Of a stretch of 64,000 nt of DNA, positions 13,387 through 27,823 are shown one piece after another. Under the pieces are notes generated by a model that was not told where the DNA came from, did no database searches, and saw nothing but the letters and a program-made list of their open reading frames with translations. Origin of the DNA: Betaproteobacteria bacterium (GTDB lineage: Bacteria; Pseudomonadota; Gammaproteobacteria; Burkholderiales; SG8-39); assembly GCA_022340285.1 (NCBI GenBank), contig JAJDOG010000057.1, forward strand, positions 1 to 64,000, in the 5' to 3' direction. The stretch's first letter is position 1. The number at the start of each line of letters is the position of its first letter. The position numbers and the translations under genes are program-made.

Positions 13387-16050
13387 ATGACCGTTCGCGC
13401 AATCAGGGCGCTCTTCGAGCCTGAGCGCATTGCTTTTGCGCCGGGCGCGCACGGCGACGCGGCGGCCGAGCGGACGCTCCGCGCCAATCTCGCCAAGCCT
13501 GGACTGGCCGTTCCGGTTCAGGAAATCACCCATCGGCTTCCGCGCGATGTCCGATTCGACCTCGGAGTGATCGCGCTGCCGAATCGTCATGCGGAAAGCG
13601 CGCTCGAGCGGCTTGCCCGGCACGGCTGCCAGGCCGCCGTGCTTGTCGACACCCACATGCGCCGCACGCCGGAGACGGTGCGGGAGTTGCAGGCATTGCG
13701 CGCACTTGCGCGCGAGCTGGGGCTCCGCACCCTCGGTCCTTCCCGCGGTGGGGTCATCGTGCCAGCCCTCGGCATGAGCGCCGGCACGGTGGGTGACATT
13801 CCGGTTGCGGGATCGTTCGCGTTCGTCACGCAATCCGATTCCGTGCTGGTCGCGATGCTCGATCGCGCGGCAGCGCGGGGCATCGGCTTCTCGAAAGTCG
13901 CATCGGTCGGAAAGCCGAGCGACGTCGTGCTCGGTGATCTGCTCGATTATCTTGCGGCGGACGAGGAGACGCGCGCAGTGTTGGTCCACCTCGAGAACGT
14001 CGCCGATCCGCGCCGGTTTGTCTCTGCCGCGCGTGCCGTCGCATGGGGAAAACCGGTTCTGGTGCTTCGCGGCGGACGATCGTGCGAGCCCGCCGACATT
14101 GGTGAAGGTCTGCTCGACGCGCTCGTGCGGCGCGACGACGTGTACGACGCCGTATTTCACCGCACCGGGCTAGTCCGCGTACCGTCGATCGACGCGATGT
14201 TCGACGCGGCGCTCGCGCTCTCGCGGTTCGGCCCGCGGCATGTGCAGGCGCTCCGCCGCGGTCGGCTTGCCATTCTGGCGAATGGCACGGGCGCCGCATT
14301 GCTCGCTGCTGACGCCCTGGCTGCAGGGGGCGGGACGCTGGCGCCGCTTGGCGCGGCAACCAGGAGAACGCTCGCGAGGTCGGGCGCGCTGACCGAGCGC
14401 GAATGCTGCGTCGATCTCGGCGTCGAGGCGACCCCTGCGAGATTTGCGGACGCACTGAAAGTCGTTCTGGCCGGCGGCGAGACCGACTGCGTTCTGGCGA
14501 TTTTCGCGCCCGCTGCCGGTGCCAACTCGGTTGCGGTCGCGACGGCCGTCGCCGACGCGACGACGCGGAGCAACGGTGGCATCGTGATCGCCGCGTGGCT
14601 GGGCGCCGAGGGTTTTCGGGAAGCGCAAGCGGTCTTGGAGCGCGCGGGGGTGCCGCTGTACCGGGACACGGTCGAGGCGGTAGACGCCTTCCTCGCCGGC
14701 GTGCGCGCAGGCCGCGCCCGCGAGCAGCTTGCCGAGATTCCGTCCCTGGTCGTCGGCGCCGAAGCGCCTCGGACGGCAGAGGCCACGGCCATGATCGACG
14801 CTGCGCTCGCACGCGGTCGACAGTTCATTCAGGGCGACGATGCGCTCGAGCTCCTCGAGGCATACGGGATACACACTGCGGGGTCGCGTCGCGTGCGCAC
14901 CATCGCCGAGGCGCATGCTGCCGCTCGTGCCGTCGGCTTCCCCGTTAGCGTAGCGGGCCTGGTACGTGGAGGCGGTCGCCGACCCGCGCGACTGGCAGCG
15001 CTCGAGGCGGGCGACGCCGGGGCACTCGCGAAGCGCTGCCGCACGTTGCGCGAGCGTGCGCGGCGCATGCATCCTGGTGCTCGGCTGGCGAGTTTTCTGG
15101 TGAGCGCCGCGCGACGCCCGGACGACTCGCTCTCGCTCATGCTCGGTGTGACGACCGATCCGCTGTTTGGTCCCGTGATAGTGGTGGGGCAGGGCGGCCC
15201 GCACTTCGCCGCCATGGACGACCTCGTCTGTGCGCTGCCGCCGCTCAATGCGGCATTGGCGCGCTCAGCCCTCGGCGACACGCGCATCGGGCGACTTCTA
15301 CTTGGCGAGACGGGGCGCTCCACCGCGAACGCCGAATCGGTGATCACAGCGCTGGTTCAGCTCTCGCAGCTGGCCGCCGACCAGCCCGCCCTGGTGGAAT
15401 TGATCGTGAACCCGTTGCTCGCTGCGCCGCATGGCGCGCTCGCGCTGGCCGCCGAGGCGCGGCTCGCGAAGACGCGTCGCGGCGCCCGTGGCGCCGACCG
15501 GCTCGCGATCCGGCCGTACCCGAGATCGCTCGAGTGCACGGTGCGCCTGCGCGACGGCACCGAGACGCGGATGCGCCCGATCCGACCCGAGGACGCGCGC
15601 GCGATGCAAAGCGCGTTTCTGAAGATGACCCCCGAGGATCGGCGCATGCGTCTCTTCACGCCGATGAACGTCCTGCGCGACGACCTCGCTGCGCGTTACA
15701 CCGCAATCGACTACGACCGCGAGATGGCGCTCGTGATCGAGGATGTCGAGCACCCGGGCGAGCTCTGGGGCGGCGCGCGAATCGTCGCGGACCCGGATGG
15801 CGTCACCGCGGATTACGCGGTGTCGACGCGCTCCGACGCGCAGCACCGCGGCATCGGCGAGACCGCCCTGCGTGCCATCCTTGCCTATGCAGCCGAGCGT
15901 GGGATCCGGTCAGTGCGCGGCAGCGTGCTGCGCGAGAATGCGGCCATGCGCGCGCTCGCGAAGCGGGTCGGTTTTCGCGAGACGCACGATCCGGACGATC
16001 CGGCCTGCGTCCTGACGGTGATCGACCCCGCGCGGGTGCGGAGGCCGTGA
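13387..16050 (+). CDS. Pat-like protein acetyltransferase: acyl-CoA synthetase (NDP-forming)-like region plus C-terminal GNAT
   Basis: N-terminal CoA-binding/ligase-CoA-like region, ATP-grasp-like region (GPVIVVGQGGP, LVELIVNPLLA), C-terminal GNAT (MRPIRPEDARAMQSAFLKMTPEDRRMRLF, QHRGIGETALRAI). Confidence 0.8.
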   Translation: MTVRAIRALFEPERIAFAPGAHGDAAAERTLRANLAKPGLAVPVQEITHRLPRDVRFDLGVIALPNRHAESALERLARHGCQAAVLVDTHMRRTPETVRELQALRALARELGLRTLGPSRGGVIVPALGMSAGTVGDIPVAGSFAFVTQSDSVLVAMLDRAAARGIGFSKVASVGKPSDVVLGDLLDYLAADEETRAVLVHLENVADPRRFVSAARAVAWGKPVLVLRGGRSCEPADIGEGLLDALVRRDDVYDAVFHRTGLVRVPSIDAMFDAALALSRFGPRHVQALRRGRLAILANGTGAALLAADALAAGGGTLAPLGAATRRTLARSGALTERECCVDLGVEATPARFADALKVVLAGGETDCVLAIFAPAAGANSVAVATAVADATTRSNGGIVIAAWLGAEGFREAQAVLERAGVPLYRDTVEAVDAFLAGVRAGRAREQLAEIPSLVVGAEAPRTAEATAMIDAALARGRQFIQGDDALELLEAYGIHTAGSRRVRTIAEAHAAARAVGFPVSVAGLVRGGGRRPARLAALEAGDAGALAKRCRTLRERARRMHPGARLASFLVSAARRPDDSLSLMLGVTTDPLFGPVIVVGQGGPHFAAMDDLVCALPPLNAALARSALGDTRIGRLLLGETGRSTANAESVITALVQLSQLAADQPALVELIVNPLLAAPHGALALAAEARLAKTRRGARGADRLAIRPYPRSLECTVRLRDGTETRMRPIRPEDARAMQSAFLKMTPEDRRMRLFTPMNVLRDDLAARYTAIDYDREMALVIEDVEHPGELWGGARIVADPDGVTADYAVSTRSDAQHRGIGETALRAILAYAAERGIRSVRGSVLRENAAMRALAKRVGFRETHDPDDPACVLTVIDPARVRRP

Positions 16051-16053
16051 AAG

Positions 16054-17313
16054 CTAGACGCCGGGCCGCCAGAGCCCGGGCTTGATCGACTCTCCGGAGT
16101 CATAGCGCTCCCAGAACCGGCGCAGAATCTTCCGATAGCATGCCGGGTAGGCGTGATGCTCGTCGAGGAACTCGGTGGCGGTGCAGCCGAAACGCTCGGA
16201 TGCCCCGGCGTCGATGATGATCAGGCCCTCGCGTTTCGCCCATTGGTCCAGCGCCGCCTTGGTGCGTTTCACGGCGTCGCCGGCATGGGCACTCGCACCG
16301 AGCGTGCGCTCGAGCCCCGGGATGAGCGGAGGTGCGAACAGCACGAGCCGTCCACCTTTGGCCGCCAGCTCGTTTGAGAGCCGGACGAGGCCATCGAGCA
16401 ATGCAGGGTTGATCTTGCCGTGGCCCTGCACGATTGGCTGCGAGTATCGGGAGTCGGGCGCCGCACCGGCCCGCACGAGCTCGTCGACCCGCGCCGGATC
16501 GACGGGCCGGCCGTCGGCGAAGGTGGCGCTGCCGTCGTTGCGGAAACCGACGCACATGCCGCGGTTGATGGTGTCGAAGTCGCGCGCCGGCGTTCCGTCG
16601 GGGCAGCGGTAGTCGGTGCTCGACGCGTCGAAGAGCGCCCGCTTGACCGCCGCGATGCCGCTCGGGGAGCGCCAGGCGAGGCGCAGGATGCTCCACAGAT
16701 TTCTTACGCGCGGCCAGGAGATGGCGTCCTCCAGCTTCCGGAGGAAGGACACGCTGGGCAGCGCCTGCGGTGACACCGCTGCCGCGGGGGAGAGATCGAG
16801 CGTGTTCGGCTTACCCGGCCGATACAGCATGCCCACCGACCAGTCGAGCGCCAGGAAGATCCATTTCACCTGATCGGAATAATGGTGAACGATGTATTCC
16901 GCTTCGCCGATCGTCGAATGAAGCGGATTGGCGGTCTGGGCGAAGTTGTAGATGCGAACGTCGGGTGGAAACGCGTCCGCGGTGAGGCCCATCGACGTCG
17001 AAGCGCCGAGCACCACGCCGTTGATCTCCGGCAGCCGATCGGCCAGCCGCAGCGACTTGAATGGGCGATTCGCGGTGATGGGCGGGGAGTACGTCACCCC
17101 GCCGGTCGCGTGCTGCCAATCGCTCGCTGCCTTCACGAGCTCCGGTGTCCCCGCGGCCCGCTCGCCCAGCAGGAGATTCAGCCCGACGACGACTGCGAGC
17201 ATCAGCCCCAGCCCGATGAGAAGCGCCGCGTTGTAGCGCCGGCTGCCTGCCTCCGCAGCGGCGTCGGGCGAAGCGACTGCATCGGGCAATGGTCGTGCGT
17301 TCTGTGTGTCCAT
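16054..17313 (-). CDS. SGNH-like/AlgJ-type membrane-anchored protein, MBOAT partner
   Basis: N-terminal TM; GASTSMGL serine motif; C-terminal FLDEHHAYP (DxxH-like); 7 bp from an MBOAT gene. Confidence 0.65.
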   Translation of the reverse strand: MDTQNARPLPDAVASPDAAAEAGSRRYNAALLIGLGLMLAVVVGLNLLLGERAAGTPELVKAASDWQHATGGVTYSPPITANRPFKSLRLADRLPEINGVVLGASTSMGLTADAFPPDVRIYNFAQTANPLHSTIGEAEYIVHHYSDQVKWIFLALDWSVGMLYRPGKPNTLDLSPAAAVSPQALPSVSFLRKLEDAISWPRVRNLWSILRLAWRSPSGIAAVKRALFDASSTDYRCPDGTPARDFDTINRGMCVGFRNDGSATFADGRPVDPARVDELVRAGAAPDSRYSQPIVQGHGKINPALLDGLVRLSNELAAKGGRLVLFAPPLIPGLERTLGASAHAGDAVKRTKAALDQWAKREGLIIIDAGASERFGCTATEFLDEHHAYPACYRKILRRFWERYDSGESIKPGLWRPGV

Positions 17314-17320
17314 CCGTGGC

Positions 17321-18892
17321 TCAGAACTGGAAGTACAGGAACTCCGAGTTCCGGTGCAGGTTGATGATCACGGTAAACGCCACCACTGCGGCGATCACTC
17401 CCAGCGCGGCCCGCGGGCGCCACAGCAGAAGCCGAGCAGGTTGCGAATCTCTGGGGATCCCGAGCGCTGGCTTGAAACGCGCCATGATCTGTTGCGTGTT
17501 GGGCGCGAACCACGCGATCGCCAGCAGGATGATCATCCAGTTGACCAGCCCGCCGCGCACGAGTCCGCGCCCCTCCGAGAAATCCATGCCGTGCACGGCC
17601 AGCCACTGCCCGAAGGCGCCCCATTTCGCGAGCAGCAGACCGGGCAGCGCGAATCCGTGAAAGCCGAACATGCCCTTGAGGATCATGACGGCGTCGTGCA
17701 TGTTCGCCGCCCGGAAGAGCGCGAGCCCGACCAGCCAGCAGGCGAAGGTCAGCAGGATCGCAAGCGGGCGTCCCCACCACGTCGAGTGGCCGCGCTTGCG
17801 CCCGAGTCGCCGGTCGCGGTGCTTGCGCATGGTTCGCCAGACCTGGTTCACGGCGAGATAGAAACCGTGCAGGGCGCCGAACACGACGTAGGTCCAGCCC
17901 GCACCGTGCCACACGCCGCACAGGATCATCGTCACGATCAGACTGTAGTAGCGTCGCGCTGCGCTCTTGCGATGTCCGCCGAGCGGAACGAACACATAGT
18001 CGCGCAGAAAGCGCGAGAGCGTCATGTGCCACCGCTGCCAGAGGTCGGACATGTTGACCGCCTTGTACGGTGAGTGAAAGTTCAACGGCAGCGTGACCCC
18101 GAAGAGCCGCGAGAGGCCGATCGCCATGTCGGAATAGCCCGAAAAATCGAAATAGAGCTGGAGCGAGTAGGCGAGCACGGCGCTCCATGCCTCGACGAAC
18201 GTGGGCTCGACGCCGGAACCCGGCAGCGAGAAGAGCGGGCCCACGTACGGCCCGATCCCGTCGGCCAGGATCACCTTCTTGAAGAGCCCGATGATGAAGA
18301 TGGTCAGACCCACGGCCACGTTCTCCGCGCGCAGTCGATAGGTCTCGCTCTTGGCGAACTGCGGCATCATTTCGGCGTGATGCAGGATCGGCCCGGCGAT
18401 GAGGTGCGGGAAGTAGGTGACGAAGAGGCAGTAGTGGACGAAGCGGTACTCCTGCACCTTCCCTTGCCAGGTGTCCACCAGGAACGCGATCTGGGTGAAC
18501 GTGAAGAAGGAGATCCCCAGGGGGAGAATGATGTTCGCGTGGGGAAACGACGTGCCGACCAGCTCGCCCACGTTCTCGAGGAAGAAGTTGGCGTACTTGT
18601 AGTAGCCGAGCAGCGCGAGATCGCCCGCCACGGCAATGAACAGCATCAGCTTCGCCCGGGCGAGATCGCCGGCCGCGCGCGCCTTGCCGATCCGCATTCC
18701 GAGGACGTAATTGAAGACGATGGAGCCGAGCAGCAGGCCGACGTAGATCGGGTTCCACCAGCCGTAGAAGAAGAGCGAGGCCGCGGCTAGCCATCCGGCT
18801 GCCAGCGCGTGGTTCGTCCGGGCGACCACGTAGAAGACCGCGAACGTGATCGGGAGGAAGAAGAAGATGAATGCGTGGGAATTGAACAGCAT
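17321..18892 (-). CDS. MBOAT-family O-acyltransferase (AlgI-like)
   Basis: MLFNSHAFIFFFLPITFAVFYVVAR; ISFFTFTQIAFLVD; CGVWHGAGWTYVVFGALHGFYL (MBOAT His). Confidence 0.9.
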   Translation of the reverse strand: MLFNSHAFIFFFLPITFAVFYVVARTNHALAAGWLAAASLFFYGWWNPIYVGLLLGSIVFNYVLGMRIGKARAAGDLARAKLMLFIAVAGDLALLGYYKYANFFLENVGELVGTSFPHANIILPLGISFFTFTQIAFLVDTWQGKVQEYRFVHYCLFVTYFPHLIAGPILHHAEMMPQFAKSETYRLRAENVAVGLTIFIIGLFKKVILADGIGPYVGPLFSLPGSGVEPTFVEAWSAVLAYSLQLYFDFSGYSDMAIGLSRLFGVTLPLNFHSPYKAVNMSDLWQRWHMTLSRFLRDYVFVPLGGHRKSAARRYYSLIVTMILCGVWHGAGWTYVVFGALHGFYLAVNQVWRTMRKHRDRRLGRKRGHSTWWGRPLAILLTFACWLVGLALFRAANMHDAVMILKGMFGFHGFALPGLLLAKWGAFGQWLAVHGMDFSEGRGLVRGGLVNWMIILLAIAWFAPNTQQIMARFKPALGIPRDSQPARLLLWRPRAALGVIAAVVAFTVIINLHRNSEFLYFQF

Positions 18893-18899
18893 CGGCAGG

Positions 18900-21554
18900 C
18901 TAGGTGGCCTGTAGCGCCGACCAGTCGCCGACTTTCAGACTCGCCAACTCGGCGGTCACATCGCGCTGCGCTTTCACGGCGCCCGTCACACCCGACATGA
19001 GCGTGGGGTGGCCGATGAGAATCGCGCCGGCCAGCCGGCCGCTGCGATCGACGACGAGCTTGCGATACTGGTACTCCGCCGCGTCCTCGTGGACGATGAC
19101 CTCCTCTCCGTCGCCTTCCGGATTGACGCGCCCCACGGACGCGACATCCGCGCCGACGACCTTGAGAATGGTGAAGGCCACCGGCTCGCGGTAGGTCCGG
19201 TCGCCGCTCAGCGCATTGACGGCGGCCACCTCGCCCTGCTCGGCCGCGACCGGCCAGAGACCCGGGATGCGGCCGTCGAACTCCGCGACGTCCCCGGCCG
19301 CGTAGATGTTGGGCACGTCCGTCCGCATGTGATCGTCCACGATCACGCCGCGCCGCGTCGCAATCCCGCATGCTTGCGCGAGCGCGATGTTCGGTGCGAT
19401 GCCCGCCGCGACGATGAAGACGTCCGCGGGAACCTCGATTCCGGTGCTGAGCCGCACGTAGATATGCCCGTCGTCGCTGCGCGCCACGCGCCGGATCTCC
19501 GTGGAGACCTGGAAAGCGATGCCCAGTCCTTCGAGATAGCGTCGCAGGAGTTGCCCGGCCGGCTCGTCGAGCTGACGATGCAATAACCACGGGTTGCGGT
19601 CGAGCACGGTGACCTGAACGCCGAGCTTGGTCAGCGCGTAGGCGGCTTCCAGTCCGAGCAATCCGCCGCCGGCGATCACCGCCTGTCGGGCCTGGGTGGC
19701 CTGCGCGTAGCGCCGGATCTCCATCGCGTCGTTCGCCGAGCGCACCACGAAGCAGCCCGCTCCCCCGTGGCCCTCGATCTCGGGCACGAAGCTCGAGCTG
19801 CCCATCGCGAGAATGAGCCGGTCGTAGCGGAGCGTGTCCCCGGTCGCGAGCGTCACGGCCTGCGCGGCCGGGTCGACCGCGCTCGCGGTGGTGTTCAGCC
19901 AGCAGGTGACTTCGCGCTCCTCGTACCACTTGTCCGGCAGCAGATAGAGTCCCTGCATCGCCGAGCGCCCGTAGATCAGCCGGGTGATCGCCATGCGGTT
20001 ATAGAGCGGGTGGTTCTCTTCTGCAACGACGTGGATCGCGCAGACGGGGTGGCGACGTCGGGCGTAGTCGGCCGCGGTGATGCCGGCGATGCCGTTGCCG
20101 ATGATCACGACGTCCTTGATGTTCGCATCGTATTGCGAGGAGGTGGGGTACTCGGGAAGCTTGCGTCGCTCGGGCTTGAGCGCGATCGCCACGCGTCCTT
20201 GCTGGACCTTTGCGCAGCAGGCCATGCGGGTGTTGGGTGCATAGCCGAGCCGCTCGAGCGTGCTCTTCTCGTCGCTCTCGGCCGGAGAGAGGTTTTCCAT
20301 GCCTTCGCGCACCGCGATCGGATCGGCGCCGCACACGCCCATCCGGCAGCCGGACTCGATCTCGCCGCCGCAGCCCTCGATCACCTCGAGGAGGCTCTGG
20401 CCGGCGCTCGCGGCGATACGCTGATCGTCGGGCTGGATCACCACTTCCGCCTGCTGGCGCGAGCTCGCGCGCCGCATCGCCTGGGCGGCGTTTTCGCCCA
20501 CGCGCGCGCCCTGTTGCGCGGTCTTCTGGATGACATGCTCGAGAAAGAGGCGCTCGGTGCGAAAGCAGCGGACGATCCATACCAGCGCGATGCCGATCAC
20601 CACCGTACGCAGCGCCCAGGGCGCCGCAGGAGGAATGCTCACGCCCCCGAGCTGCTCCACACCCGACGCCATCGCGGGCGCCACGAACCAGTAATAGAGC
20701 GCGATCGCCGCCGCGCCGAACACGACGGTCAGGCGATTGCGCGGCAGTTTCAGGAAAACATCCAGCACCTGGAACAGGGCGAGGCTCAGCGCGCACCACA
20801 GGCCGAAATGCGCATAGATCTGCGGGAGCGATTCGTCGGTGGACACGGTGTAGAACGCGTAGATGAATCCGGGAAGCGCGCCGGCGAAGACCCGCCGGTA
20901 GCCGACGTAGTGACGGTCGTCGTCGTACTGGTCCGCGAGGTAGGCGATGGAAGGATTGAAGTCATAGCAGTTCTTGGTGCACCCGACGCACGGCTTGCAA
21001 TGCGCGTTGGGAAGCACCGCGAAAGGCGCCTGGCCGTAGAGGCGCTGGACCGGGAGCAGGGGACAGATGCTGCTGCACCAGCCGCTCTTGCCCTTGAAGA
21101 CGAGGCCGCCGAGAAACGCGCCGCCGAGCCCAAACAGCACCAGCGCCGCCGAGGCGACGCCGCTGCCGTCGAATAGCCACTTGCGCGACGAGACCAGCAC
21201 GAAGAAGAGCGCGATGCCCACAACGAAGCTGTACTCGCGGATTTGCGGCGTGTGCGCGAGCCCGCGCGTGAAGCCGGCCATGCGCGGCAGCTGGTTGAGC
21301 GCGGCCATCGGGCAGAGATTGCGCCACAGCCCCGGCACGACGAGCATCACGAGCGGCAGGCTCGGTACCAATACCTGCCAGAGCAACACGCGTCCGCGCT
21401 CCGGATTCACGACGAGCAGCAAGGCGACCGCGAGCGCGGTCGCGATCGAGGCTGCGCGGAGCGCGAACCAAACCCACCCGGGAACCCTGGTCGGGATCTG
21501 AGTGTAGTTCGGGAACGGAGGTCGGGCAGTGCCTGCGGTCTGCGCCATCGTCAC
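18900..21554 (-). CDS. Three-module membrane redox fusion: NapH/NosR-like TM 4Fe-4S module + 2Fe-2S ferredoxin-like module + NirB-like FAD/NAD(P)H oxidoreductase
   Basis: TM segments; CSSICP and CKPCVGCTKNC; CGGEIESGCRMGVCGADPI; VVIIGNGIAGITAADYARRRHP and AVIAGGGLLGLEAAYAL dinucleotide folds; IYAAGDVAEF. Confidence 0.85.
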   Translation of the reverse strand: MTMAQTAGTARPPFPNYTQIPTRVPGWVWFALRAASIATALAVALLLVVNPERGRVLLWQVLVPSLPLVMLVVPGLWRNLCPMAALNQLPRMAGFTRGLAHTPQIREYSFVVGIALFFVLVSSRKWLFDGSGVASAALVLFGLGGAFLGGLVFKGKSGWCSSICPLLPVQRLYGQAPFAVLPNAHCKPCVGCTKNCYDFNPSIAYLADQYDDDRHYVGYRRVFAGALPGFIYAFYTVSTDESLPQIYAHFGLWCALSLALFQVLDVFLKLPRNRLTVVFGAAAIALYYWFVAPAMASGVEQLGGVSIPPAAPWALRTVVIGIALVWIVRCFRTERLFLEHVIQKTAQQGARVGENAAQAMRRASSRQQAEVVIQPDDQRIAASAGQSLLEVIEGCGGEIESGCRMGVCGADPIAVREGMENLSPAESDEKSTLERLGYAPNTRMACCAKVQQGRVAIALKPERRKLPEYPTSSQYDANIKDVVIIGNGIAGITAADYARRRHPVCAIHVVAEENHPLYNRMAITRLIYGRSAMQGLYLLPDKWYEEREVTCWLNTTASAVDPAAQAVTLATGDTLRYDRLILAMGSSSFVPEIEGHGGAGCFVVRSANDAMEIRRYAQATQARQAVIAGGGLLGLEAAYALTKLGVQVTVLDRNPWLLHRQLDEPAGQLLRRYLEGLGIAFQVSTEIRRVARSDDGHIYVRLSTGIEVPADVFIVAAGIAPNIALAQACGIATRRGVIVDDHMRTDVPNIYAAGDVAEFDGRIPGLWPVAAEQGEVAAVNALSGDRTYREPVAFTILKVVGADVASVGRVNPEGDGEEVIVHEDAAEYQYRKLVVDRSGRLAGAILIGHPTLMSGVTGAVKAQRDVTAELASLKVGDWSALQAT

Positions 21555-22037
21555 TTAGCGTACGATGCGCAGGAGCCGCTGGGTCATCTCGCGCAGCCGC
21601 AGCGAGAGGATCCTCGCAAGGTCTGCGACGACATCACGCGCCAGCGCGGGATCGCGGGCGCTCATCACTTCGAGCGCTTTCGCGTCGATACGGAAAAGCT
21701 CGCCGTCGCTCAGCGCGCGCACCGTGGCGGAGCGTGGCAGGCCGTCGAAGAACGACTGCTCGCCGATGATCGAATGCTCCTCGATCGCCGACAGCAGGAA
21801 CTCCTTGCCTTGCTCGGTGCGCGCCACGGCCTCGAGCCGGCCGTTCGCGACGATGTAGAAGTCGCGGCTCTGCTCGCCGGCCTCGAGGAGCGTCTCGCCC
21901 TGCGCGAAACGGCGGTGCTGGGCATACCCGAGCAGCTTCGACCAGCCGGACTCGGAGAGTTGCGCGAGGAAGACCGGCGAGGCCGACTCCGGCTCGCGGT
22001 CCGGATTCTCGTAATTGAAGAACGAGGTGAAGTCCAT
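21555..22037 (-). CDS. Cyclic nucleotide-binding domain protein without recognisable DNA-binding domain
   Basis: FAQGETLLEAGEQSRDFYIVANGRLEA...IIGEQSFFDGLPRSATVRAL (cNMP fold with phosphate-binding RSA); ends ~40 aa later with no HTH. Confidence 0.85.
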   Translation of the reverse strand: MDFTSFFNYENPDREPESASPVFLAQLSESGWSKLLGYAQHRRFAQGETLLEAGEQSRDFYIVANGRLEAVARTEQGKEFLLSAIEEHSIIGEQSFFDGLPRSATVRALSDGELFRIDAKALEVMSARDPALARDVVADLARILSLRLREMTQRLLRIVR

Positions 22038-22163
22038 GCCGCTTCGCTCCTCTCGATGCGCACGTTCGACGCGCATTGCCGCAGACTGCAGTAGGGTACC
22101 CGCATCGACGCTGGCCAAAAAGGGGCCTGGCGCCTAACCTCGTTCTGCGGGACGGGGGCCCCG

Positions 22164-24548
22164 ATGATCTGGCAGAATCGGCGGTCAAGTCTCCGCGAGT
22201 CGTCCCGCTTGGCCCGGTCCCGCAAGAAATCCCCCCCGCAGGCGTCATCACCCGAGCCCGCCGCGCGTGCACGCGGCCGCTCCAGGTACGCCTGGCCGGC
22301 GCTCACGGTGGCTGCCGTGCTCATCGCCGGTCTGCTGGCCACGATACTGTGGAAGCCGCAGGAGCCACCTGCGACCACCGCGCGGGGCAAAGCGGAATTC
22401 ATCGGCAGTCCCGCGTGCGGTGAATGCCACGCCGATGCATACCAGGCGTGGCAGGGCTCGCAACACCAGCGCGCGATGCAGCACGCGACCGATGCGACGG
22501 TGCGCGGCGATTTCAACGACGCAAAGTTCGACTACGCCGGCGTCGTGTCGACATTTTTTCGGCGCGACGGGAAGTTCTTCGTGCGCACGGACGGGCCGGA
22601 CGGCGCGCTCGCCGATTTCGAGGTCAAGTACACGTACGGGGTCTATCCGCTCCAGCAGTACCTGATCGCGTTTCCTGACGGGCGTATCCAGGCCCTGTCG
22701 ATCGCGTGGGACACGCGCGCGAAGGAAGCGGGCGGCGGGCGCTGGTTTCACCTCTATCCGGACGAACGCGTGGATTTTCGCGACGAGCTCCATTGGACGA
22801 AGCGCTCGCAGAACTGGAACTACATGTGCGCCGACTGTCATTCGACCGACGTCCGCAAGAACTACGACGCTGCGACCGACACGTTCAAGACGACCTGGTC
22901 CGAGATCACCGTCGGCTGCGAAGCGTGTCACGGTCCCGGGTCGCGTCACCGTCGCTGGGCCAACAACTCGGCGAACGAGAAAAGCGCCGATCCGACGCGT
23001 GGTCTGACGGTGGCGCTCGACGAACGGCATGGCGCGACCTGGAAAATCGACACCGCAACGGGCAACGCGACGCGGAGCGCCATCAAGCGCACGGATCGGG
23101 AGATCGAGGTCTGTGCGCAATGCCACGCGCGCCGAAGCCAGATTGCCGAGGGATACCACGCCGGCAAGCCCTTTCTCGACTACTACCGGCCCACACTTCT
23201 TTCAGCCGGTCTCTATCACCCCGACGGACAGCAGCGCGCCGAAGTGTACGTGTGGGGCTCGTTCCTGCAGAGCAAGATGTATCGGGCGGGCGTGACATGC
23301 AGCGACTGCCACGATCCGCATACCCAGAAGCTGCGTGCGGAAGGCAACGCCGTGTGCGCCCAGTGTCACTTGCCCGCAAAGTACGACGCGCCGTCGCACC
23401 ATTTCCACAAGGCGGGCGCGCGCTGCGTCGACTGCCACATGCCGGCCGCGACCTACATGGTCGTCGACCCGCGGCGTGACCACAGTCTGCGCGTTCCGCG
23501 ACCCGATCTGTCGGTGGCGCTGGGAGTGCCGAACGCGTGCAACGGATGTCATGCCGACAAAACCGCACAATGGGCGGACGATGCCGTGCGCAAGCTGTAC
23601 GGCCACCGGCCGGAAGGCTTTCAGCGCTTCGCCGGCACGCTTGCGGCGGCCGAACGAGGCGACGCGCGCGCGGGCGCGAACCTCGCGGTGGTTTCGGGAG
23701 ACCTGTCGCAGCCGGCCATTGCGCGTGCCACGGCGGCCGAATCGCTCGCGAGATTTCCCTCGCAAGCGACCCTCGCGGCGCTCCAGCGCGGGTTGACGGA
23801 CGCCGACCCGATGGTTCGCCGCGCGAGCGTGACCGCGGCGGCGGCGCTGCCAAGCGCGCAACGGGCATCGCTCGTTGCGCCGCTCCTCGACGATCCGGTG
23901 CGTACGGTCCGTATCGAGGCGGCCTCGGCGCTGGCCGGCGTGCCCGACAGCGCGCTCGATCGAGCGCAGCAGGCCGGCTTCGCACGCGCCGCCGCCGAGT
24001 TCGAGGCCGCGCAGCGCTATAACGCGGACCGGCCCGAAGCGCGTACGGCGCTCGGAACCTTCTACGCGCAGCGTGGGCGAGCCGCGGAAGCCGAGCGGGA
24101 GTACCGGGCGGCGCTTGCAATGGACCCGCGTCACGTTCCGGCTTATGTGAATCTCGCCGACCTGTTCCGCTCGCAGCAACGCGAGGCCGACGCGGAGGCG
24201 GTGCTGCAGGAGGGATTGAAGCGATTTCCCGAGAGCGCTGCGCTCCAGCACGCGTACGGACTTTCGCTCGTGAGGCTGAAGCGGATGCCTGAGGCGCTCG
24301 ACGCGCTGGCGCGATCGGTGGGGCTCGCGCCCGACGACGCGCGCTTCGCGTACGTTTACGCGGTGGCGTTGAACTCGAGCGGGAACACGCGCGCGGCGCT
24401 CGCGGAGATCGATCGCGCCCTCGCGCGGCATCCCGATGATCGCGATCTCCTCAACGCGGGCGCGGCGTTCGCGCGCGACTCGGGAAACAGCGCTGCGATG
24501 GCCCGGTATATGAAGCGGCTTGCGGCGCTACCCGGCGCGCAACGCTGA
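22164..24548 (+). CDS. Membrane-anchored octaheme c-type cytochrome with HEAT-like and TPR C-terminal region
   Basis: Eight CXXCH motifs: CGECH, CADCH, CEACH, CAQCH, CSDCH, CAQCH, CVDCH, CNGCH; N-terminal TM; TPR-like helices. Exact start uncertain. Confidence 0.87.
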   Translation: MIWQNRRSSLRESSRLARSRKKSPPQASSPEPAARARGRSRYAWPALTVAAVLIAGLLATILWKPQEPPATTARGKAEFIGSPACGECHADAYQAWQGSQHQRAMQHATDATVRGDFNDAKFDYAGVVSTFFRRDGKFFVRTDGPDGALADFEVKYTYGVYPLQQYLIAFPDGRIQALSIAWDTRAKEAGGGRWFHLYPDERVDFRDELHWTKRSQNWNYMCADCHSTDVRKNYDAATDTFKTTWSEITVGCEACHGPGSRHRRWANNSANEKSADPTRGLTVALDERHGATWKIDTATGNATRSAIKRTDREIEVCAQCHARRSQIAEGYHAGKPFLDYYRPTLLSAGLYHPDGQQRAEVYVWGSFLQSKMYRAGVTCSDCHDPHTQKLRAEGNAVCAQCHLPAKYDAPSHHFHKAGARCVDCHMPAATYMVVDPRRDHSLRVPRPDLSVALGVPNACNGCHADKTAQWADDAVRKLYGHRPEGFQRFAGTLAAAERGDARAGANLAVVSGDLSQPAIARATAAESLARFPSQATLAALQRGLTDADPMVRRASVTAAAALPSAQRASLVAPLLDDPVRTVRIEAASALAGVPDSALDRAQQAGFARAAAEFEAAQRYNADRPEARTALGTFYAQRGRAAEAEREYRAALAMDPRHVPAYVNLADLFRSQQREADAEAVLQEGLKRFPESAALQHAYGLSLVRLKRMPEALDALARSVGLAPDDARFAYVYAVALNSSGNTRAALAEIDRALARHPDDRDLLNAGAAFARDSGNSAAMARYMKRLAALPGAQR

Positions 24549-24611: not shown

Positions 24612-27197
24612 ATGGCCGACGCTCGATCGCCGGATATCGAGACCGTTCCTACAGATCTCTCGCTCCGTGCAGGCACCGGGAAGGCGCGAGGCTATGCGCG
24701 TCTCGCGCTCGCGATCCTGCTGATCTGTGCGGGGTACTACGTCACCGGTGTCGTCGCGCTCTCGCTGCGGCTCGAGCCCGGGGGCATCTCCACCATCTGG
24801 TTGCCGCACGGCATTCTGCTGGCGGCGCTGATTCTCACGCCGCTACGCTACTGGTGGCTGGTGCTCGCCGCATTGCTGCCCGTACACCTGCTTCTCACGG
24901 CCCGCTTCCAAGGCGCCGTTCCGCTCGAAATCATGCTCATTCAGTTCGGCGGCAACGCCGCACAGTCGTTGCTCGGAGCGATCGCCGTGAGACGTCTCAT
25001 CGGCACGCCGCCACGGCTGGACGTATTTCGAAACATGATCGTCTTCGTTGTCCTCGGCGTGATCCTTCCCGCGCTGGTCGTCTCCGTGGCCGTGGCAGGG
25101 CTGTTCGAGATCTCGGGGTGGGTCGACGAGTTCGGGCTCGCCTGGCATCGGCGGACGTTGACCGGCATCTGTGGGGCGCTGTTGCTCGCACCGTTCATCA
25201 TCGGAGTGGCCGCCGGGGGGGCGGGAGCTATCAGAGGGCTGCCGCTGCGGCGCCTGCTGGAATACGCCGGTATCACGATCGGCGTCATCGCGCTGGAACT
25301 GCCCGCGGGCAACGTGATTTGGGATCTCGCGAGCCAGCAAGCGCTGCTCTTCGCGCCGCTTCCCCTGCTTCTGTGGACGGCGGTCCGCTTCGGGCCGACC
25401 GGCCTCACTCCGCAGCTGCTGATCGTCGCGCTTGCGGCGCTTACAGCGACGAAGGTCGGACACGGACCGTTCTTGGCCGAAACGACTGCCGAAAGCGTGC
25501 TTTCCGTGCAGGCGTTTCTGTTGTCGATCGCGGTCCCGAAGCTGTTGCTGGCGGCCCTGGTCGCCGACCGGGATCGGTCCGCGCGCGCGCTCGACGAGCG
25601 ACTCAACTTCGAGCGGCTGGTCTCCGGGGTGTCCGCCAGCCTGATCAATCCCCCGCAGGACAAGCTCGACGAGGAGGTTGGCGAGGCGCTGGGCAAGGTG
25701 GTTGACGCCATGAAGCTCGACCGTTGCTCGGTGTTCCAGTACTTGCCGATGCAGCACGGCTGCCGGATCACGCACAGTGCCGAATCGGCCGAGAGCCCGC
25801 CCTTGCGGCGCGAGATGGCCGAGGCGGAGCTCCCCTGGATGCTCAGGCAACTGCGGGCCGGCAGGACCTTGGTGCTGAACGATGTCGATCGCGACTTGCC
25901 GGCCGAGGCGACTGCCGAGCGCCGTTATGCCGCAGACTACCGCTCGCGGTCCTGGCTCACGGTTCCGGTGTCGGTCGGCAACGAGCTGGTAAACGCCGTG
26001 TCATTTCACAGCATCAAACGGCGGGAGTGGACCCCCGATCTCGTGGCGCGTCTGCAGTTGCTGGCGGAGATCTTTGTTTCATCGTTGACGAGCAAGCAGG
26101 CCAAGGAGGCGCTTCACGCAAGCGAGGAACGCTACCGCGAGGTCGTCGAGAGCCAGACCGAGCTGGTGTGCCGCTACCTGCCGGACACCACGCTGACCTT
26201 CGTCAACAATGCCTACTGCCGATTCTTCGGCCGCCGGCGCGAGGAGCTCATCGGACGCAAGTTTCTCGAGCTGATCCCGGAAGCGGCTCACCCGGCGGTG
26301 TTGGGTCAGGTCGACTCGCTCGTCAGAGAGCCGCGCGTGCACACCTACGATCACGAGGTGATGCGCGCGGACGGGACCATCGGCTGGCAGCAGTGGGTGG
26401 ACTCGGCGATCGTCGGTGCCGACGGTCGCGTGACGGAGTTGCAGGGCATCGGTCGGGACATCACCGACCGCAAGCGTGCGGAGGAGGCGACCCAGCGGCT
26501 TGCGCATGCGTCGCGACTCGCGGTGATGGGCGAGCTGACGGCATCGATCGCTCACGAGATCAACCAGCCGCTCAATGCGATCCTCAACAACGCCGACGCC
26601 GCCGAACTGCTTCTCGAGACGGGCTCGGGGCGATTAGACGAAGTGCAGCGGATCCTGGCCGACATCCGCAGGGACGACCTGCGGGCGAGCGAGGTGATCC
26701 GGCGCATTCGCGCACTGTTGCGGAATCGTCCCTTGGACCGCCAGCCGGTCGACCTGAACGATGTGGCGGCCAGCATGCTTCAGCTGGTCGGCAACGACGC
26801 GTCGAAGCGGGGGATCCGGGTGGAGACCGAGCTCGAGCCGGGCCTGCCGGCGGTGCTCGGCGACGGGGTGCACCTGCAACAGGTGCTGCTCAATCTCGTC
26901 CTGAACGGCATGGACGCGATGACCGACGTGCCCGAACCACGACGCCGACTCTCGGTGCGCGTCGCGCGCGAGGGCGGTGGAGTGGAGATCGCCGTGAGCG
27001 ACTGGGGCAACGGAGTCGACCCGAGCAGGATGCCGATGCTTTTCGACTCCTTCTTCACGACGAAGGAGGACGGAATGGGTCTGGGATTGTCCATCGCCCG
27101 ATCCATCGTCGAAGCGCACGGCGGACGAATCTGGGCGGAGAACCGCGCCGAAGGCGGAGCGACGTTCCGTTTCTCGGTGCCGATCGAGCCCGCATGA
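24612..27197 (+). CDS. MASE1-type sensor histidine kinase (MASE1-GAF-PAS-HisKA-HATPase)
   Basis: N-terminal multi-TM with GGISTIWLPHGILLA; GAF and PAS regions; ELTASIAHEINQPLNAIL H-box; GMGLGLSIARSIVEAHGG. Confidence 0.88.
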   Translation: MADARSPDIETVPTDLSLRAGTGKARGYARLALAILLICAGYYVTGVVALSLRLEPGGISTIWLPHGILLAALILTPLRYWWLVLAALLPVHLLLTARFQGAVPLEIMLIQFGGNAAQSLLGAIAVRRLIGTPPRLDVFRNMIVFVVLGVILPALVVSVAVAGLFEISGWVDEFGLAWHRRTLTGICGALLLAPFIIGVAAGGAGAIRGLPLRRLLEYAGITIGVIALELPAGNVIWDLASQQALLFAPLPLLLWTAVRFGPTGLTPQLLIVALAALTATKVGHGPFLAETTAESVLSVQAFLLSIAVPKLLLAALVADRDRSARALDERLNFERLVSGVSASLINPPQDKLDEEVGEALGKVVDAMKLDRCSVFQYLPMQHGCRITHSAESAESPPLRREMAEAELPWMLRQLRAGRTLVLNDVDRDLPAEATAERRYAADYRSRSWLTVPVSVGNELVNAVSFHSIKRREWTPDLVARLQLLAEIFVSSLTSKQAKEALHASEERYREVVESQTELVCRYLPDTTLTFVNNAYCRFFGRRREELIGRKFLELIPEAAHPAVLGQVDSLVREPRVHTYDHEVMRADGTIGWQQWVDSAIVGADGRVTELQGIGRDITDRKRAEEATQRLAHASRLAVMGELTASIAHEINQPLNAILNNADAAELLLETGSGRLDEVQRILADIRRDDLRASEVIRRIRALLRNRPLDRQPVDLNDVAASMLQLVGNDASKRGIRVETELEPGLPAVLGDGVHLQQVLLNLVLNGMDAMTDVPEPRRRLSVRVAREGGGVEIAVSDWGNGVDPSRMPMLFDSFFTTKEDGMGLGLSIARSIVEAHGGRIWAENRAEGGATFRFSVPIEPA

Positions 27198-27823
27198 CCG
27201 AGCGTGGACCCGTCGTCCACGTCGTGGATGACGACAACTCTGTGCGGACCGGGGTCGTGCGCCTGCTGAAAGCCGCCGGCTACGAGGCCCGGGGCTACAG
27301 TTCCGCGGGCGAGTTCCTGCTGAACCGATCGGAAGAGAACGGCCCCGGCTGCGTGGTCCTCGATGTCCGGATGCCGGGCCCGAGCGGCCTCGAGCTGCAG
27401 GATGCGCTTGCCCGGCTCGAGGTGCCGCTGCCGATTGTCTTTCTTACCGGCCATGGAGACATTCCGATGAGCGTGCGCGCGATGAAGGCCGGGGCGATCG
27501 ATTTTCTCACCAAGCCGGTGAGCCGCGAGGCGCTCCTCGGCGCCGTGAAAAACGCGCTTGCGCGCGGTGCGGCGACGAGGGCGGCCCGAGCGCTTGCTCA
27601 GACGTTGCGCACGCGCTACGAGACGCTGACGCCGCGTGAGCGCGAAGTCTTTGCCGGTGTCGTCGCCGGTAAGCTGAACAAGGAGATCGCCTACGAGCTG
27701 GGCACCGCGGAGCGCACGATCAAGGCGCACCGCGCACAGGTGATGGAGAAAATGCAGGTTGCCTCCGTTGCCGAGCTCGTCCACGTCGCGGAACAGCTGC
27801 GCGAGGGATCGGCGCACTCGTAG
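27194..27823 (+). CDS. FixJ/NarL-type response regulator
   Basis: VVHVVDDDNSVRTGV, LDVRMPGPSGLEL, FLTGHGDIPMSVRAMKAGAIDFLTKPV, TPREREVFAGVVAGKLNKEIAYELGTAERTIKAHRA; ATGA overlap with kinase stop. Confidence 0.9.
   Translation: MTERGPVVHVVDDDNSVRTGVVRLLKAAGYEARGYSSAGEFLLNRSEENGPGCVVLDVRMPGPSGLELQDALARLEVPLPIVFLTGHGDIPMSVRAMKAGAIDFLTKPVSREALLGAVKNALARGAATRAARALAQTLRTRYETLTPREREVFAGVVAGKLNKEIAYELGTAERTIKAHRAQVMEKMQVASVAELVHVAEQLREGSAHS

Follow-up and report, generated by a model that had tools for sequence, protein, structure and literature searches.

A candidate signal-gated NADH oxidoreductase module with exchangeable cyclic-nucleotide and FHA inputs in a betaproteobacterial genome and its distant relatives

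Introduction

What does a small cyclic nucleoside monophosphate (cNMP)-binding protein do directly in front of a membrane redox enzyme, and which of the surrounding genes belong with the two? The question is raised by positions 16054-24548 of a 64,000-nucleotide stretch (hereafter the window, meaning that whole length) of contig JAJDOG010000057.1 from Betaproteobacteria bacterium, assembly GCA_022340285.1, a draft genome of 120 contigs. Four minus-strand genes lie there close together, encoding the cNMP protein, an 884-aa redox fusion, a membrane-bound O-acyltransferase (MBOAT) and an SGNH-like protein, and a multiheme cytochrome gene starts divergently. A first-pass annotation, made from the letters alone, had joined all five into one redox system controlled by cyclic nucleotides. 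We give a probability of roughly 0.55 to a narrower reading, in which positions 18900-22037 carry one instance of a two-gene module conserved elsewhere, encoding a signal-gated, cytoplasm-facing NADH:membrane-acceptor oxidoreductase that would be gated by cyclic AMP (cAMP) or cyclic GMP (cGMP), or by phosphothreonine.

Results and discussion

Distribution of the two-gene module

A scan of genome contigs with the membrane part of the redox fusion as query yielded 80 loci, labelled here with L-numbers. They came from Burkholderiales, Rhodocyclales, Andreprevotia, Pleionea, Aliikangiella, Chloroflexota and others, and among actinobacteria from Nocardia, Mycobacterium, Mycolicibacterium, Nocardioides, Geodermatophilus and Streptomyces. 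The distribution was patchy; among 399 genomes sampled over the whole phylum, 2 had the redox gene, one of these being the genome of the window itself. When all window proteins were compared with the 80 loci by tblastn, the cNMP and redox genes were recovered, and clustering of the open reading frames (ORFs) over the flanks gave the same two as the only widely shared clusters, with 55 groups for redox and 33 for cNMP; the third largest had 6. In 46 of 82 loci the cNMP gene was next to the redox gene, often with 0-60 bp between them. The recurrence of this pair as neighbours in distant phyla is far beyond chance. Distances among the cNMP proteins followed those among the redox proteins closely (Mantel r 0.81; 0 of 2000 permutations), and as far as such distances tell, the two proteins share an evolutionary history.

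Shorter relatives were also seen. L110, L111, L115, L038 and L118 have the membrane Fe-S part in a short form that lacks the flavin adenine dinucleotide (FAD) part, and N-only versions in Chloroflexi/Bacteroidetes sat beside housekeeping genes. A scan of plasmids returned only NirB-like FAD matches, none of which spanned 80% of the query.

Anatomy of the redox fusion

The redox fusion (18900..21554, minus strand) was analysed with Pfam/NCBIfam, AlphaFold models and a 48-row alignment. The full-length model had a pLDDT of 88.8 and a pTM of 0.66, and that of residues 1-465 had a pLDDT of 88.2 and a pTM of 0.86. Three parts were recognized, in the order that the first-pass annotation had given; its [2Fe-2S] and NirB-like FAD parts were borne out by Pfam, and its NapH/NosR-like part received weak matches from Fer4_5 and hhalign.

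The membrane Fe-S part (residues 1-368; 20451..21554, minus strand) was defined from a 51-row alignment, predicted helices and Fer4_5. It has eight predicted long transmembrane helices, and two large loops carry all seven invariant cysteines, namely C81, the CxxxCP pair C160 and C164, and the cluster C186-x2-C189-x2-C192-x3-C196. In the eight-helix model the N-terminus, which is the point of fusion to FHA domains in other loci, lies on one side together with the two loops and the redox parts of the C-terminal half; this side is predicted to be cytoplasmic because of the positive charges in the loops and the C-terminal linker. The Fer4_5 match in the window protein was below threshold (E 0.01; 16.2 bits vs a cut-off of 22), with no Pfam match to the membrane part at 0.001. 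Among the homologues, 46 of 51 matched at E<=1 (best 6.6e-5), and 22.2 bits, over the cut-off, was reached in the genome scan only. By hhalign against NapH-like rows, the probability was 93% over 47 columns covering the CxxxCP/4Fe-4S region.

The [2Fe-2S] ferredoxin part (residues 369-470; 20145..20450, minus strand) matched PF00111 (Fer2, E 2e-6), and a Foldseek fold search matched it to FdC and Fdx. Its invariant columns are C403, C408, D411 and C446, with Asp in place of the third Cys, as in SdhB.

The NirB-like FAD/NADH oxidoreductase part (residues 480-870; 18903..20117, minus strand) was supported by its invariant columns and by PF07992 (Pyr_redox_2, E 6.8e-61) and PF18267 (Rubredoxin_C, E 3.8e-12). 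The NirB profile scored 295.6 bits against a cut-off of 578, with profile positions 1-393 of 794 matched and no siroheme part. An acidic residue follows the second Rossmann strand (VLDRN), which we take to favour NADH rather than NADPH. No invariant cysteine was present in this part in the 48-row alignment, so single-electron transfer is expected rather than disulfide chemistry.

The cNMP input protein and its exchange for FHA

The cNMP-binding input protein (160 aa; 21555..22037, minus strand) starts at an ATG at 22037, which yields the conserved N-terminus MDF. It matched PF00027 (E 1.4e-20) and, by profile, PKA/PKG regulatory and CRP domains, and was conserved in an 18-row alignment. Its phosphate-binding cassette reads GEQSFFDGLPRSATVRA, with the pocket Glu and Arg intact. 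The protein ends after the cNMP domain at 160 aa, PF00027 was the sole family found, and no DNA-binding helix-turn-helix was present, indicating that it is not a CRP/FNR transcription factor.

Inputs were counted over the 69 full-length redox genes for which 700 bp or more of upstream sequence was available. An input module was found in 67 of these, comprising a cNMP gene in 34, an N-terminal FHA domain in 26 and both in 7. FHA was fused to the redox protein in 33 loci, with PF00498 found in 8 of 9 N-termini tested, and the features of a phosphothreonine site were retained among the FHA copies (GR, 36/36; SxxH, 34/36; NG, 36/36). Apparent direct cNMP-redox fusions in L061, L079 and L080 were rejected as overlapping ORFs in different frames. 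The deep-branching L107, L112 and L116 were counted as cNMP type; they have a separate FHA or T6SS_FHA_C (PF20232) gene upstream of the cNMP gene, and their cNMP pockets are degenerate. A link to type VI secretion through these three loci was also rejected, as no type VI secretion genes were present among the flanking genes scanned. In five actinobacterial groups the FHA-type redox gene is followed immediately by a convergent gene for a second FHA-domain protein (cluster c3; about 370 aa median; e.g., L073 12656-13648 and L095 12625-13476).

Pockets were scored by the aligned residue count of the cNMP phosphate-binding Glu and Arg. Both were intact in 34 of 37 cNMP-only loci (window included), compared with 3 of 10 loci that had an FHA module as well (Fisher P 2e-4). 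The pocket was intact in all nine cyclase-linked cNMP loci and degenerate in both kinase-linked loci that retain the cNMP gene. The simplest reading of these sequences is that selection maintains ligand binding as long as the cNMP protein serves as input, and that binding is lost after FHA has assumed this role. On the tree, cNMP-only forms were spread across deep branches and FHA forms lay inside the Actinomycetota set, with the forms having both inputs among them; the node behind the placement of the FHA forms was weakly supported (83/43). By the evidence of these alignments, some lineages exchanged a cyclic-nucleotide receiver for a phosphorylation receiver, and this swap suggests an undescribed way of switching a membrane redox enzyme on and off.

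The genes around the loci followed the type of input. At a distance of up to 6 kb, class III cyclases neighboured 7 of 39 cNMP-only loci (6 groups), 2 of 7 loci with both inputs and 0 of 26 FHA-only loci. For Ser/Thr kinases, at up to about 4.5 kb, the corresponding counts were 17 of 26 FHA-only loci (5 of 6 groups), 2 of 7 with both and 0 of 39 cNMP-only loci. Against a genome background of 94 cyclases in 83.6 Mb (1.12/Mb) and 279 kinases in 80.2 Mb, the 7 cyclases observed near cNMP-only loci compare with 0.39 expected (P 2e-7, or 4e-6 by groups), and the 17 kinases near FHA-only loci with 0.69. Three cyclase architectures were seen near the loci (CHASE2-cyclase, FHA-cyclase and cyclase-AAA), and in L103 the redox gene is followed, after 7 bp, by the start of a Guanylate_cyc-AAA gene.

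From these patterns the coupling of the redox enzyme to an input is well supported at the level of sequence. The claim of the first-pass annotation that a cNMP module controls NADH-driven electron flow in the membrane is likewise favoured by a pair that is conserved, coinherited and cyclase-linked and keeps its pocket. The cNMP protein, whose contact with the redox protein is presumed, could instead be a bystander expressed from the same promoter as an NADH dehydrogenase that is constitutive. We consider this very unlikely, as the FHA replacement, the decay of the pocket where FHA is present and the Mantel correlation are hard to explain on such terms. Signalling might also run outward, with the flavoprotein sensing the NADH/quinone state and reporting through the cNMP/FHA module to a cyclase or kinase, rather than serving as a high-flux enzyme. 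The near-universal attachment of signalling modules, the associated cyclases or kinases and the lack of a conserved substrate-specific neighbour would suit such a sensor. However, both inputs are of the receiving kind, the cNMP protein with its conserved ligand pocket as much as the FHA domains, and a full NADH/FAD/2Fe-2S/Fe-S chain exceeds what a sensor needs, which makes this alternative unlikely.

Proposed electron path

In the gated oxidoreductase that we favour, NADH would reduce FAD in the C-terminal NirB-like part, and FAD would hand electrons singly to the [2Fe-2S] part. From there they would pass to an Fe-S centre, ligated by cysteines, on the cytoplasmic side of the eight-helix membrane part, and then to a final acceptor that is likely a lipid-soluble quinone. 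The cNMP protein, with cAMP or cGMP bound, would bind the redox protein and open or close the electron path. In many Actinomycetota this input would be replaced by the N-terminally fused FHA domain, reading threonine phosphorylation by the neighbouring Ser/Thr kinases. A route for electrons through the membrane to a cytochrome in the periplasm, as first annotated, is not indicated, since all Fe-S ligands and the FAD part fall on one side, predicted to be cytoplasmic.

Several observations weigh against this mechanism. Foldseek found no match for the membrane part in the Protein Data Bank (PDB), and for this reason the acceptor and the direction of electron flow are guesses; no quinone site was identified, and the membrane part has fewer motifs than NapH/NosR, with one CxxxCP and one CxxCxxCxxxC. 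Neither a cNMP nor an FHA input was detected in 2 of the 69 full-length copies (L055 and L099). The cyclase linkage involves a minority of cNMP loci, and the window itself contains no cyclase, with nine elsewhere in its genome. The kinase linkage is partly confounded with membership of Actinomycetota; the cNMP-only loci of Actinomycetota, which are those of Streptomyces, Solirubrobacteraceae, Nocardioides Root682, Acidimicrobiia and two others, lack a nearby kinase.

A different role for the same chain would be that of a dedicated reductase for a separate protein partner, such as an oxygenase, a desaturase or a molybdenum enzyme, with the membrane part as a docking or relay unit. The FAD part does resemble oxygenase ferredoxin reductases and the 2Fe-2S part resembles FdC, and the short version in L118, which has the 2Fe-2S part, adjoins a sulfite-oxidase-like molybdo-enzyme. 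Yet no partner gene recurred near the module across the 80 loci, and we regard such a role as rather improbable. As to a substrate, aldehyde dehydrogenases, GNATs, an aminotransferase, a tRNA synthetase and further genes occurred among the neighbours at no more than the frequency expected of common families, as assessed by judgement without a formal test.

Novelty and significance

No description of the module was found in the open-access literature, subscription journals lying outside the coverage, and the same search gave no reason to doubt the earlier remark that the combination is undescribed; the module is likely to be new. The wider proposal, at slightly less than even odds in our estimate, is an undescribed class of redox or respiratory enzyme in which one NADH-oxidising membrane core takes interchangeable cNMP and FHA inputs and is switched by a second messenger or by phosphorylation. 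The usual view is that gene expression and substrate govern respiratory NADH oxidation. If the proposal is true, electron flow would be gated directly and post-translationally in a scatter of Pseudomonadota, Chloroflexota and Actinomycetota, Nocardia and environmental mycobacteria among them, and the many bacterial class III cyclases and orphan cNMP proteins would gain a concrete target beyond transcription. Testable predictions on binding and on enzyme activity follow from the cNMP-to-FHA swap and the pocket decay that goes with it.

MBOAT, SGNH-like and cytochrome genes

The MBOAT O-acyltransferase (DltB/AlgI-like; 17321..18892, minus strand) was identified by PF03062 (E 3.7e-35) and by matches to DltB structures. 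The gene for its SGNH-like partner (16054..17313, minus strand) is labelled from the motif GASTS...DEHH by eye, as no Pfam, NCBIfam or PDB family matched the protein. Of the annotated MBOAT and SGNH pair, the first member is borne out by Pfam, and the second is a candidate by motif. The divergent gene (22164..24548, plus strand) encodes a membrane-anchored octaheme cytochrome; motif counting gave exactly eight CXXCH, as annotated, and Pfam added HEAT and TPR repeats after them.

Could all these form one cNMP-controlled redox and acylation operon of four genes, working with the divergent cytochrome? The arrangement at 16054-22037 suggests co-transcription here. By ORF calls the four genes are spaced by 7, 7 and 0 bp, the redox GTG start following directly on the cNMP TAA stop, and the cytochrome gene begins 126 bp from the cNMP gene; all of these coordinates agree with the first-pass annotation. 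However, the tblastn comparison found MBOAT, SGNH and octaheme cytochrome in none of the other loci, and in genomes of the same genus they occur apart from the redox genes. One of these (G371) has the cNMP and redox genes at 57% identity, the redox gene being split by a contig end, with a CoA-ligase-like gene 4 bp after it and no MBOAT. Another (G370) lacks the redox gene and has MBOAT followed by SGNH (46% identity) in a glycan cluster, among genes whose sequences suggest glycosyltransferase, aminotransferase and methyltransferase functions. In the genome of the window, a second MBOAT lies on another contig (L039, 1547-4440); it is 60% identical to the first and is followed by a GSS-type SGNH-like gene. 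Relatives of the cytochrome were found in 9 of 61 related genomes, the own genome counted in, mostly in those with no redox gene. The four-gene operon is therefore highly improbable as a functional unit. MBOAT, SGNH and the cytochrome lie outside the conserved module, though MBOAT is probably co-transcribed with the redox genes here; to judge from these comparisons, all three adjoin the module in this genome with no relation to it. Co-occurrence of the five families across genomes had been named at the outset as a check on the annotation; the cNMP and redox pair co-occurred, the other three did not, and by that measure, its own, the part concerning envelope acylation is refuted.

Further genes flank the locus, in which an Rfam search gave no match. 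An ADP-forming acyl-CoA-ligase-like protein with a C-terminal GNAT domain, an architecture like that of the protein acetyltransferases PatZ/Pka, is encoded at 13387-16050 (plus strand), its gene ending 3 bp from the end of the SGNH gene. Directly downstream of the cytochrome, 24612-27823 (plus strand) encodes a MASE1-GAF-PAS histidine kinase and then a FixJ-like response regulator.

Comparison with known systems

The membrane part resembles NapH, NosR and CcoG (Fer4_5, PF12801) in having a CxxxCP and a CxxCxxCxxxC cluster between transmembrane helices on one side. However, those proteins have two CxxxCP and two CxxCxxCxxxCP motifs, whereas the redox fusion has one CxxxCP and one CxxCxxCxxxC plus the lone C81, eight helices and fused 2Fe-2S and FAD parts. 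The FAD part shares its FAD/NADH fold and Rubredoxin_C-type C-terminal domain with the N-terminal half of NirB and with NADH:ferredoxin/rubredoxin/oxygenase reductases; it differs from NirB in scoring under the cut-off, in having no siroheme/nitrite part and in being attached to a membrane protein. The FdC/Fdx fold of the [2Fe-2S] part is that of SdhB and adrenodoxin-type [2Fe-2S] proteins, and SdhB shares the CxxxxCxxD...C pattern with Asp in third place. Unlike in those proteins, the domain here is the central linker of a three-part electron chain.

Among signalling systems, mycobacterial Pat and Pycsar also use a cNMP-binding module as controller, and some of the present loci have cyclases nearby. 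By contrast, Pat is a cAMP-gated acetyltransferase in one polypeptide, and Pycsar places the PycC cyclase beside a TIR or transmembrane cNMP killing effector; the window contains no cyclase, and the redox protein gave no PADLOC match. The FHA type is reminiscent of mycobacterial GarA, in which an FHA module is likewise tied to Ser/Thr kinases and to energy metabolism, but here the FHA domain is fused to a membrane oxidoreductase.

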